Shown here piece after piece: positions 12,964 to 16,623 of a stretch of 64,000 nt of DNA; within the stretch, counting starts at the first letter, position 1; each line of letters opens with the position of its first letter. Source of the stretch: Phycisphaerae bacterium (GTDB taxonomy: Bacteria > Planctomycetota > Phycisphaerae > UBA1845 > PWPN01); assembly GCA_018003015.1 (NCBI GenBank), contig JAGNEZ010000008.1, positions 1 through 64,000 of the forward strand, given 5' to 3'. Under the pieces are notes generated by a model, which made no database searches, had not been told where the DNA came from, and saw only the letters and a program-made list of their open reading frames with translations. Position numbers and translations under genes: made by a program.

Positions 12964-13320
12964 TCACCCGCAACCGCAGGACTTTGGCGCCGGGATCAGG
13001 CAAATGAACTCGCAGTGCTCCGCCCCGGTGTTGCAGAACTGGTGCTTCTCATTCGGTGGAACGAAAACAACATCACCCGCCTTGAACGGCCGATCGCCTT
13101 CGGCGCTTTTGGCAACGCCGCTCCCCTTGAGCACGAGGACTTCATGCTCGTAATCATGCTGGTGATGAGGCGTACAGCCGCCAGGTTCGACTTCGAAATG
13201 CCGCATGTGAAAGGTCGTCGCGCCGTCGTCCGGACCGATGAGCATGCGCATCCGGGCCCCCTTGGCCCCGTCCATTACTACCGGTTCCTGTCGATGAGCC
13301 TTGATCGCTCGCACTTTCAT
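12964..13320 (-). CDS. Small cupin-domain protein
   Basis: 118-aa single-domain cupin. The two conserved motifs are visible: GGCTPHHQHDYEHEVLVLKG (metal-binding His/Glu set) and the second with GDVVFVPPNEKHQF. The very C-terminus ends in a Cys-rich tail (SCGCG), which may bind a metal. GAGGTG five bases before the ATG sets the start. It begins 21 bases after the Crp/Fnr regulator stop codon on the same strand, so both probably share a transcript. Stand-alone cupins of this kind serve as metal-dependent enzymes or small-molecule sensors; no particular reaction can be assigned. Confidence 0.8.
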   Translation of the reverse strand: MKVRAIKAHRQEPVVMDGAKGARMRMLIGPDDGATTFHMRHFEVEPGGCTPHHQHDYEHEVLVLKGSGVAKSAEGDRPFKAGDVVFVPPNEKHQFCNTGAEHCEFICLIPAPKSCGCG

Positions 13321-13341: not shown

Positions 13342-14052
13342 TCAGTCAAACTCGCCGGCGGGCAGGCCGGCGGCCACGTCCTCGAGCCGGGCACGGTCCA
13401 TTATCCGAATCCGCTGCTGGTCCAGCAACTCGATCAGCCCGGCATCCGCCAGTCGCCGGATGGTCCGCGACAACGTCTCGCCGGTCAGATTCAGATGGCT
13501 CGCCAGATCCTTCTTCAACATGGGCAGGAGAAAAGCCTCCTCGCCGGCCGCTGCCCCCGCATGCAACAGGTGCCTCGCCACCCGCCCGGTGGAATCACGC
13601 AGCACAAGGTCCTCAAGCAAGCCCACGAAGTGCTTTACCCACCAGGCAAAAGTCTCCATGATCTGAAGACAAAGGGCGTGGTCAGCCCGCAGCAGCTGCG
13701 TCAGCCGGTCCTGGAGAATCAGCACGCAAAGCGTGTCTTCCATGGCCTCGGCCGTCGCCGGGCAGGGGAAACGCCCGATCGCCGCTACCTCGGCAAAGGT
13801 CATCCCCGGATACGCCAGGTGAAGGACGTGTTCCTTCCCGCTGGGCGCGTACTTCACAACACGAACCAGCCCCTCGGCCATCACGTAAATGCCCGGACAT
13901 GGGGCACCTTCGCGGAAGATGGTCTGTCCCTTGGAAAAGCGACGGGAGATCGAAATCTCCGCCAGCTTGGCCGTCGAGGCTTCATTCAATCCCCGAAAAA
14001 GCCCACATTGCTGCAAGTAACGCTGAATGGGGGAGTTTCCGCTGTCGACCAT
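13342..14052 (-). CDS. Crp/Fnr-family transcription regulator
   Basis: 236-aa regulator with an N-terminal cyclic-nucleotide-binding-like beta barrel (about 20-130, with FREGAPCPGIYVMAEG) and a C-terminal winged helix (about 160-230). The recognition helix GETLSRTIRRL shows the E--SR pattern of FNR, which reads TTGAT half-sites. Exactly such a site lies 28 bases upstream. Four N-terminal Cys of the classic FNR iron-sulfur cluster are not arranged in the FNR way, so the protein more likely resembles HcpR/DNR regulators that sense NO or redox state; this is an inference. The ATG at 14052 has no strong ribosome binding site; longer in-frame starts would overlap the ferredoxin gene. It is divergent from the ferredoxin-hcp pair and precedes the cupin gene. 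Confidence 0.85.
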   Translation of the reverse strand: MVDSGNSPIQRYLQQCGLFRGLNEASTAKLAEISISRRFSKGQTIFREGAPCPGIYVMAEGLVRVVKYAPSGKEHVLHLAYPGMTFAEVAAIGRFPCPATAEAMEDTLCVLILQDRLTQLLRADHALCLQIMETFAWWVKHFVGLLEDLVLRDSTGRVARHLLHAGAAAGEEAFLLPMLKKDLASHLNLTGETLSRTIRRLADAGLIELLDQQRIRIMDRARLEDVAAGLPAGEFD

Positions 14053-14079
14053 AGCAAAACCGGAAAAAAAACGCCTCGC

Positions 14080-14093
14080 TTGATCCAGATCAA
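14080..14093. promoter_or_regulatory. FNR/DNR-type operator TTGAT-N4-ATCAA
   Basis: A perfect palindrome, TTGATCCAGATCAA, matching the FNR consensus in every defined base. It sits in the divergent promoter between the Crp/Fnr gene and the ferredoxin gene. Its centre (14086.5) is about 40 bases upstream of the expected start of ferredoxin transcription, the geometry of a class II activator site. It lies only 28 bases before the regulator's own ATG, where it would rather block transcription. Confidence 0.8.
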
Positions 14094-14113
14094 GGTCTGC
14101 CGGAACCGAGTGG

Positions 14114-14119
14114 TATATC
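14114..14119 (+). promoter_or_regulatory. Putative -10 element of the ferredoxin-hcp promoter
   Basis: TATATC is the best -10 match downstream of the FNR box. It would place transcription start near 14126, about 40 bases after the centre of the box and 44 bases before the ferredoxin ATG. No good -35 hexamer is present, as is normal for activator-dependent promoters. Confidence 0.45.
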
Positions 14120-14169
14120 CTTGGGCACCAGGATCGACGATTTCGCCGTCGGTTCCAGCGAGGTGAGAC

Positions 14170-15018
14170 ATGGTACGCGATATCGTGGTGATTGACGAGG
14201 CAAAGTGCGATGGCTGCGGTCAGTGCGTGACCGCCTGCGCAGAAGGAGCCATCCAGGTCATCAATGGCAAGGCCAGGCTCGTGTCCGAACTCTATTGTGA
14301 CGGACTCGGCGCCTGCCTGGGACACTGTCCCCAGGGGGCCATCACCGTCCAGAAACGGGAAGCGGTCGCATTCGACGAGGCGGCCGTCGCCCAGCATCTG
14401 GCTCGCTCCGGCCGGAAGCCCCAGCCTCATTCAAGCCCGACCACTGTTTCCGCCCCGGCGGCGACCGCCCGCACCGGCTGCCCGGGAAGCCGCTTCCAGG
14501 ATCTGACCGCGTCCTCCGGCCACCACCCCGGAGGCGGCTGCCCGTCTGCCGCGTTCGCTCAGTTCGAGGCAAGGCACGCCACGCCACCCCGCCCAGGCCC
14601 CCACGCCTCCGCCGAGACGCCGTCGGAACTCACCCACTGGCCTGTCCAGCTCCGCCTCCTGCCCCCCGGCGCCCCAGCCCTGCAAAAGGCACACCTGCTG
14701 CTGGCGGCCGACTGTGTACCCGTCGCCTACCCCGAATTCCACCGCAACATGCTCCGCGGCCGAGCCGTGGTCATCGCCTGCCCCAAGCTCGATGATCCGG
14801 ACGGCTACGTCGAGAAGCTGACCGAGATGCTCCAGATCGGAGACATCGCCTCGATCACCGTCGCTCACATGGAGGTGCCCTGCTGCACCGGAATCCTGCG
14901 CATGGCGATCGAAGCCCGCAGCCAAAGCGGCAAGGGAATACCCCTGCACGATGTGGTCATCAGCCGCCAAGGAGAAATCCTGGCCCGCCGCGAAGTACCG
15001 TTCACCATAACGAATTGA
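14170..15018 (+). CDS. Two-cluster 4Fe-4S ferredoxin-like protein next to hcp
   Basis: 282-aa cytoplasmic iron-sulfur protein. The N-terminal 65 residues hold two 4Fe-4S cluster motifs, CDGCGQCVTAC and CDGLGACLGHCP. A Pro/Ala-rich linker with CPGSR and GGGCPSA (about 90-150) leads to a C-terminal domain with AADCVPVAYPEFH, VIACPKLDD and VPCCTGILRMA. This ferredoxin family is commonly found beside hcp in anaerobes and is a likely electron donor to Hcp. The ATG at 14170 has AGGTG five bases upstream. It is the first gene after the FNR-type box and is followed after 294 bases by hcp on the same strand. The extra Cys in the C-terminal part might bind a further cluster, but this cannot be shown here. 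Confidence 0.85.
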   Translation: MVRDIVVIDEAKCDGCGQCVTACAEGAIQVINGKARLVSELYCDGLGACLGHCPQGAITVQKREAVAFDEAAVAQHLARSGRKPQPHSSPTTVSAPAATARTGCPGSRFQDLTASSGHHPGGGCPSAAFAQFEARHATPPRPGPHASAETPSELTHWPVQLRLLPPGAPALQKAHLLLAADCVPVAYPEFHRNMLRGRAVVIACPKLDDPDGYVEKLTEMLQIGDIASITVAHMEVPCCTGILRMAIEARSQSGKGIPLHDVVISRQGEILARREVPFTITN

Positions 15019-15312: not shown

Positions 15313-16623
15313 GTGTTCTGCAATCAATGTGAACAGACAGCTCGCGGAACGGGATGCACCATCACCGGCGTGTGCGGCAAAAACCCGGACATCCAGTCGC
15401 TGCAGGAAACCCTGCTGTACGGATTGAAGGGAATGGCCGCCTACGCCCACCACGCCCGCAGGCTGGGAATGATCGACGAAGAGGTCGATGCCTTTGTCGA
15501 AGAGGCCCTCTTCGCAACCGTCACCAACGTGAACTTCGATCTCGACAGCCACATCGAACTCGTCCTGGAGTGCGGCAAGCAGAACCTCCGGGTCATGCAG
15601 ATGCTCGACGAAGGCCACGTCAAACGATTCGGTTCGCCGTCACCCGCCAAGGTCTACGAGGGCACCAAGGCCGGCCCTGGCATCCTGGTGACCGGCCACG
15701 ACATGGTCGATCTGGTCGACCTCCTCGAACAAACCAAGGGCACCGGCGTGAATGTCTACACCCACGGAGAGATGCTCCCCGCTCACATGTACCCGGGACT
15801 CCGCCAATACCCGCATCTCGCCGGCCATTTCGGCGGAGCATGGCAGAAGCAGCGCAAGGAGTTCGCCCAGTTCACCGGCGCCATTCTCGCGACCACCAAT
15901 TGCGTGCTCATCCCCGAGGCGGGCTACAAGGACCGTCTCTTCACCACCCGCGTGACCGCCGTCCCAGGCGCCACCCGCCTCAAGACGAACGATCTCTCAG
16001 CGGTCATCGCCTGCGCCAAGAAATCCCAGCCGCTGCCCCACGCCCCAGTCAAGGAATCCACCATCGGATTCCATCACTCCGTACTGCTGGGGCTGGCCGA
16101 CAAGATCGTGGCCGCCATCAAGGCCAAGAAGATCAACCACTTCTTCGTCATCGGTGGCTGCGACGGCGCCGAGCCCGGCCGCAACTACTTCTCCGAGTAC
16201 GCCCGCATGACTCCGCCCGATTCACTGGTCCTCACCCTGGGATGCGGCAAGTACCGCATTCGCGACAACGACTTCGGCACCCTCCACCTAGAGGGTGTCG
16301 GCCCCATCCCGCGACTTCTCGACATGGGCCAGTGCAACAACGCCTATGGGGCAATCCAGGTGGCCGTCGGACTCTCCAAGGCATTCCACTGCTCGGTGAA
16401 CGACCTGCCCCTGACCCTGGTGATCTCCTGGTTCGAGCAGAAGGCGGTCGCGGTGCTCCTCACCCTTCTCTATCTCGGCGTCAAGGGCATCCGCATCGGG
16501 CCGGCCGCACCGGCTTTCATCTCGCCAAACGTGTTCAAGGTGCTCCAGGAGAAGTTCGACCTGCGTTTGACCGGCACGGACCCCGCCGCTGATCTGAAAC
16601 AGGCAATCAGCCCTGCAGCCTGA
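15313..16623 (+). CDS. hcp: Hybrid cluster protein (hydroxylamine reductase), short form
   Basis: 436-aa Hcp, an oxygen-sensitive iron-sulfur-oxo enzyme that reduces hydroxylamine in vitro and is thought to act on NO in cells. The N-terminal cluster motif is C3-x2-C6-x8-C15-x5-C21, as in class I proteins that bind a 4Fe-4S cluster. The hybrid-cluster ligands all appear present: His129 (TGHD), Glu153 (HGEMLP), Cys197 (TTNC), Cys283 (GGCDG), Cys311 (LGCGK), Cys341 (GQCNN), Glu375 and Lys377 (WFEQKAV). At 436 aa it lacks the roughly 110-residue helical insert that follows the first motif in the 550-aa Desulfovibrio protein, which is the class III layout. The GTG start has AAGGAG nine bases upstream. 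Likely co-regulated with the preceding ferredoxin by the FNR-type box. Confidence 0.93.
   Translation: MFCNQCEQTARGTGCTITGVCGKNPDIQSLQETLLYGLKGMAAYAHHARRLGMIDEEVDAFVEEALFATVTNVNFDLDSHIELVLECGKQNLRVMQMLDEGHVKRFGSPSPAKVYEGTKAGPGILVTGHDMVDLVDLLEQTKGTGVNVYTHGEMLPAHMYPGLRQYPHLAGHFGGAWQKQRKEFAQFTGAILATTNCVLIPEAGYKDRLFTTRVTAVPGATRLKTNDLSAVIACAKKSQPLPHAPVKESTIGFHHSVLLGLADKIVAAIKAKKINHFFVIGGCDGAEPGRNYFSEYARMTPPDSLVLTLGCGKYRIRDNDFGTLHLEGVGPIPRLLDMGQCNNAYGAIQVAVGLSKAFHCSVNDLPLTLVISWFEQKAVAVLLTLLYLGVKGIRIGPAAPAFISPNVFKVLQEKFDLRLTGTDPAADLKQAISPAA

Follow-up and report, generated by a model that had tools for sequence, protein, structure and literature searches.

Rodionov et al. 2005 described the regulator HcpR in front of hcp and frdX and a palindromic site ahead of the genes it targets, and the same account places dnr of A. 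ferrooxidans divergently from hcp-COG0543, with a DNR site (PMC1274295). For both DNR and HcpR, haem-based sensing of NO has been described (PMC12750200; PMC12403760). The planctomycete locus studied here lies in a stretch of 64,000 nucleotides from a Phycisphaerae bacterium, hereafter the window, and resembles both accounts: as in the HcpR regulon, a Crp/Fnr regulator stands beside frdX-hcp with a palindrome before the target, the likeness here being one of location, and the divergent layout is the same as that of dnr and hcp in A. ferrooxidans (PMC1274295). With DNR of Pseudomonas and beta-proteobacteria, the planctomycete regulator has in common the box TTGATnnnnATCAA, the absence of the FNR cysteines and the closest solved sequence (3dkw). 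However, Pseudomonas DNR controls denitrification genes, whereas the partner of the planctomycete locus is frdX-hcp, and in a profile alignment an invariant Cys16 stands opposite a histidine of DNR. The consensus of HcpR1 is TTGACnnnnGTCAA or CRP-like and that of HcpR2 is GTAACnnnnGTTAC, whereas at position 5 of the box studied here, 50 of 66 aligned loci have T and the other 16 have C. The E-x2-S-R of the recognition helix (E192, S195 and R196, each in 27/27 sequences) is shared with E. coli-type FNR, but the N-terminal cysteine cluster is not. Altogether, the arrangement corresponds to the known DNR/HcpR control of hcp, found in a planctomycete, and we leave the name undivided between DNR and HcpR. 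A literature search found no paper treating, by title or abstract, a planctomycete case of such a promoter map.

The palindrome TTGATCCAGATCAA (14080 to 14093, plus strand) sits between a Crp/Fnr-type regulator gene and a pair formed by a frdX-like ferredoxin gene and hcp. The regulator is a DNR/HcpR-like protein of 236 aa encoded on the minus strand (13342 to 14052; Pfam cNMP_binding 6.2e-21 and HTH_Crp_2 2.3e-16), and a small cupin gene (12964 to 13320, minus strand; Pfam Cupin_2) is probably cotranscribed behind it. Besides the window, only L046 and L047 of 18 order-level loci have a cupin directly behind the regulator. On the other side, the presumed target operon begins with a ferredoxin-domain protein of 282 aa (frdX-like; 14170 to 15018, plus strand; Pfam Fer4) followed by hcp, a hybrid cluster protein of the hydroxylamine reductase family (15313 to 16623, plus strand; Pfam Prismane 1.8e-128, NCBIfam NF003658 and TIGR01703 over cut-off). 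This Hcp is a short form of 436 aa: about 110 positions in the N-terminal part of NF003658 are missing from its match, a trait of short-form Hcp proteins, which we take to be class III. The two genes would be cotranscribed, although the 294 bp between frdX and hcp mean that hcp could have a promoter of its own.

We propose that the palindrome is the predicted operator of the divergent DNR/HcpR-type regulator, which would act as an NO-responsive class II activator of frdX-hcp, a model that we regard as quite probable. The regulator would be activated, most likely, by binding of NO to a haem cofactor. The active dimer on the box, centered at about -41.5, would recruit RNA polymerase, in the manner of class II activators, to a target promoter in which the box replaces the -35 element and TATCCT serves as the -10. 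Expression of the frdX-like ferredoxin and of hcp would then result in the reduction of nitric oxide or a related species, protecting the cell. The computed evidence for this model is the site, its conservation, the 22-bp spacing, the link with hcp and frdX, the single Crp/Fnr protein over cut-off and the FNR-type recognition helix.

The perfect FNR-consensus palindrome claimed in an earlier sequence-only reading is indeed present: TTGATCCAGATCAA matches the FNR consensus and is the sole match to TTGATNNNNATCAA at up to one mismatch in the window, with 0.50 expected from shuffling. The site also matches the DNR-type TTGATnnnnATCAA. An order-level search covered 60 relatives in addition to the genome of the window; the regulator was found at 52% identity or above in 16 of these 61 genomes, and the box lies between the regulator and frdX/hcp in 15/15 other close orthologue loci; it was not found at three weaker, distant regulator paralogues. 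All 16 regulator-bearing genomes, own included, hold hcp, compared to 7 of the 45 without the regulator (Fisher p 1.2e-9), and the TTGATNNNNATCAA box was absent from the hcp flanks examined in those seven. Two of these seven hcp loci hold a TTGACNNNNGTCAA palindrome (TTGAC-N4-GTCAA) near hcp, which argues against a perfect link.

At the scale of the phylum, the regulator gave matches at 1e-40 in 18 of 392 genomes, own included. Searching named genomes with nothing but the regulator alignment yielded 80 loci; most of them come from Phycisphaerae or Pirellulales, a few carry the labels Myxococcota, Bradymonadales or Competibacteraceae, and some belong to genomes already in the earlier searches. 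Either hcp or frdX is divergent from the regulator in 56 of the 80, and the box is present in all 56, versus 5 of the 24 others, three of these five having short upstream sequence. In 18 of the 80 loci, which encode close relatives of the regulator (L133, L137, L144, L153, L166, L169, L176, L178 and ten more), the sequence examined contains neither a divergent hcp/frdX nor the box; in L149, in addition, the only match has one mismatch and is chance-like. No hcp was seen in the flank examined of the regulator relatives L081, L082 and L083. Where the operator is present, it mostly keeps one direction with respect to the target gene: CCAG serves as spacer in 30 of 65 loci, the middle dinucleotide of the spacer is CA in 44 versus TG in 6, and 55 of the 65 loci have GG directly after the box, compared to 3 with CC before it.

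The position of the box relative to the frdX promoter carries the argument for activation. When 15 order-level loci were aligned at the box, each read in the direction of its target gene, they pointed to an xAxxxT hexamer 22 bp after the box. It stands at this gap in 13 of these 15 discovery loci and in 7/12 phylum loci (20/27, the next offset reaching 7), and again in 31 of 39 further distinct loci outside the hypothesis-forming set, for which 2000 shuffles averaged 1.6 and reached 7 at most; the loci share descent, so that the shuffle figure is not a probability. Of all 66 distinct loci, 51 carry the motif at a gap of exactly 22 bp after the box and 15 do not, whereas other offsets average 2.6. 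These counts leave out L046 (near-identical to the window), the near-duplicates L124 and L155 and those of the 80 loci that exactly duplicate earlier ones, as well as L075, which has a divergent hcp and a degenerate box with one mismatch; the box region of L069 is included, and L149 (the one-mismatch match, without hcp) is part of the 39 and 66 counts and outside the 65-locus counts. As judged from these alignments, the arrangement is conserved with base-pair precision across the phylum.

Since 22 bp separate the 14-bp box from a hexamer at -12 to -7, the center of the box falls exactly at -41.5, and a class II placement before frdX, as predicted from this spacing, is strongly supported. In the window, the -10-like hexamer is TATCCT (14116 to 14121, plus strand), from which the frdX transcription start is predicted at 14127 to 14130 (plus strand), with the box centered at about -40.5 to -43.5, and at -41.5 if transcription starts at 14128. 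The class II activator distance of the earlier reading is thus upheld by the conserved spacing, held-out loci included. Its -10, TATATC, does occur at 14114 to 14119, but the register conserved across orthologues is that of TATCCT, two bases off. The -10 became visible only through the alignment of orthologues; a simple-consensus sigma-70 scan found 0 promoter-like sites, and a full -35 hexamer was not recognizable. A second xAxxxT peak was seen at gap 14 in 15 of 66 loci, within a recurrent ATTGTCC just upstream of the -10.

The bases flanking the box are also conserved. It is directly followed by GGTC (14094 to 14097, plus strand), and column counts over the 66 loci give G at the first position after the box in 55, G at the second in 62 and C at the fourth in 38. 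The second-base G and the fourth-base C would correspond to the G and C of TTGACA in a -35 hexamer spaced by 17 bp, suggesting an overlap with a weak -35 region. Upstream of the box, the columns are enriched in A/T at 8 to 15 bp. In class II promoters, the alpha C-terminal domain of RNA polymerase contacts the region upstream of the box, a position that this enrichment would match. In the window, it takes the form of an A-tract 8 bp upstream of the box (14064 to 14071, plus strand) with a putative UP-like role; lying between the box and the regulator, the tract could serve as an UP element or belong to the regulator leader. In the FNR-activated cld promoter of Ideonella dechloratans, the box is centered at -41.5, the -35 overlaps it and the -10 is weak, with the A at -11 and the T at -7 reported as most relevant (PMC7349173). 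The predicted planctomycete frdX promoter shares this class II geometry, which in its case is seen in conservation over a phylum. The alignments supply a promoter architecture that can be put to the test, resolved to single base pairs, in a phylum for which the literature search listed no such map.

Nothing comparable was seen on the regulator side, where xAxxxT occurs at gap 22 in 5 of 65 loci only. A peak of 51 at 29 nt upstream on that side carries no information, as A-N3-T reads the same on the opposite strand. A bidirectional promoter was considered and rejected, as no downstream offset on the regulator side exceeds 13 of 65 loci. In Dinoroseobacter shibae, a single Fnr/Dnr site between divergent genes is described as activating both sides (PMC5398030); the planctomycete locus likewise has one box between divergent genes, but the spacing is found on the hcp side only. 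The same binding may limit the regulator's own expression, and autorepression is plausible from the position of the box close to the regulator start codon. This closeness had been pointed out earlier with a figure of 28 bases; the count is 27 between the box and the ATG at 14052 to 14050 on the minus strand.

The sequence of the regulator is consistent with such a site. We aligned 27 regulator sequences, leaving out the orthologues L069 and L078, which have an internal TAG in frame and are possibly decayed genes or assembly errors. The recognition helix T190-x-E192-x-x-S195-R196 is invariant in 27/27 sequences and is of the FNR type, which reads TTGAT according to the position-to-base rule given for this family (PMC1274295). 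A profile search against solved structures ranked DNR of P. aeruginosa first (3dkw, 8.3e-42), ahead of two Ruegeria pomeroyi proteins (about 4e-36) and A. fischeri FNR (2.7e-21). An AlphaFold model of the regulator (mean pLDDT 88.6, pTM 0.66) was compared with solved structures by Foldseek, which placed GlxR first by E-value and DNR fourth, with a TM of 0.64 (best among the matches listed) and 29% identity, while P. gingivalis HcpR (9day) reached a TM of 0.61 with 18% identity; judged on this model, fold alone does not name the regulator family. Conservation singles out H78 (27/27), H186 (22/27) and C16 (27/27) as candidate haem ligands. In the profile alignment, C16 lies opposite the DNR histidine near the N-terminus, and H186 aligns with the histidine of the DNR AGHL stretch; these DNR histidines are presumably its haem ligands. 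By analogy with DNR and HcpR, NO sensing by haem is likely.

Two alternatives question whether this regulator acts on the box at all. The palindrome could be there by chance: the genome (6.86 Mb, 144 contigs, 98.67% complete) contains four perfect copies, and the other three all lie within open reading frames (L064 position 4487, L065 position 4708 and L066 position 2781). The genome scan for random occurrence suggested in the earlier reading thus gave a mixed answer, in that the bare palindrome does recur, but the copy at 14080 to 14093 alone stands before a gene and between divergent genes. All 56 named loci in which hcp or frdX is divergent keep its position and sequence, as do the 15 order-level loci, and this conservation refutes chance, which is hardly conceivable as an explanation. 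Alternatively, a true oxygen-sensing FNR encoded elsewhere in the genome could use the box for simple anaerobic induction, as the match to the FNR consensus would allow. A search of the 98.7%-complete genome with the HTH_Crp_2 profile returned a single protein over cut-off, the divergent regulator, with two sub-threshold matches, and a genome-wide profile search for PF00325 gave no match. FNR was rejected as the binder on this basis, a reading that could be revived only by a Crp/Fnr gene hidden in an assembly gap and that is very improbable. The FNR named by the sequence-only reading is hence replaced by the divergent regulator, since the latter is the sole Crp/Fnr protein over cut-off, lacks the FNR cysteines and is closest to DNR. 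More generally, in a genome without FNR, a sequence that looks like an FNR box can belong to a nitric oxide switch of the DNR/HcpR type.

Two further alternatives accept the regulator and differ on how it works. The regulator could sense oxygen or redox through conserved cysteines rather than NO through haem. C16 is invariant and C128 (25/27), C97 (24/27) and C52 (22/27) are frequent, these three and C109 all falling within 21 to 25 of 27. FNR holds its [4Fe-4S] cluster through an N-terminal CX2CX5C motif; no N-terminal cysteine cluster of this type was found in the 27 aligned regulators, where C16 is the only N-terminal cysteine. The closest solved relative is DNR and the targets in relatives include nitrogen-oxide genes, so that cysteine-based sensing appears unlikely. 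The regulator could also be mainly a repressor, its dimer blocking polymerase at the frdX promoter until released by NO. Such a mode is proposed for HcpR2 of Desulfovibrio desulfuricans, described as a putative Fe-S protein that is inactivated by NO and represses the same gene pair (PMC5701242). An HcpR of another phylum can thus act as a repressor of this pair, and the conserved cysteines (C16, C128, C97 and C52) would suit a protein of this kind. Nevertheless, a repressor does not need a fixed spacing, and the 22 bp to the -10 in 51 of 66 loci argue against this Fe-S model, as does the absence of a recognizable full -35 hexamer; we give repression little credence. Within the preferred model of an NO-responsive activator, it is possible, though we say so tentatively, that one regulator serves one target: the sole Crp/Fnr protein of the genome would control nothing but the locus divergent from it, by way of an oriented operator (spacer CCAG toward the target), perhaps with a cysteine-ligated haem in which Cys16 takes the place of the DNR histidine.

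In the window's own genome, the switch looks local, given that the three other perfect boxes lie within open reading frames; the genome also has 105 sites with one mismatch. A wider regulon in this genome was rejected: the promoter-grade pattern TTGAYNNNNRTCAAGG-N21-ANNNT matches just twice, in the window and within an open reading frame. No NrfA was found in this genome. We searched the same pattern in 28 regulator-bearing genomes together with a reversed control, which had no match. It matches in 23 of the 28, with 18 of the 29 matches at the regulator locus and 11 away from it (6 within open reading frames and 5 before genes). Promoter-grade sites stand before an unlinked hcp in G010, before nrfHA in G412 and before a gene encoding a DUF438-hemerythrin-PAS protein in G331. 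G412 also has such sites before a radical-SAM pair and an alginate-export-like gene, neither linked by Pfam to nitrogen oxides or stress. In L196, the box lies at position 170, before hcp. The suggested link to nitrogen-oxide genes is supported by these neighbors in relatives (hcp/frdX and nrfHA), and the 42-base pattern is offered for finding planctomycete nitrosative-stress genes. The simpler pattern, which is not of promoter grade, gave a bare palindrome near the nrfA region in G049 and a palindrome in front of the NrfA gene in L085. With this simpler pattern only, a perfect TTGATCCAGATCAA was also seen upstream of feoB in G013 (L096, 1501 to 1514), a possible iron-uptake target.
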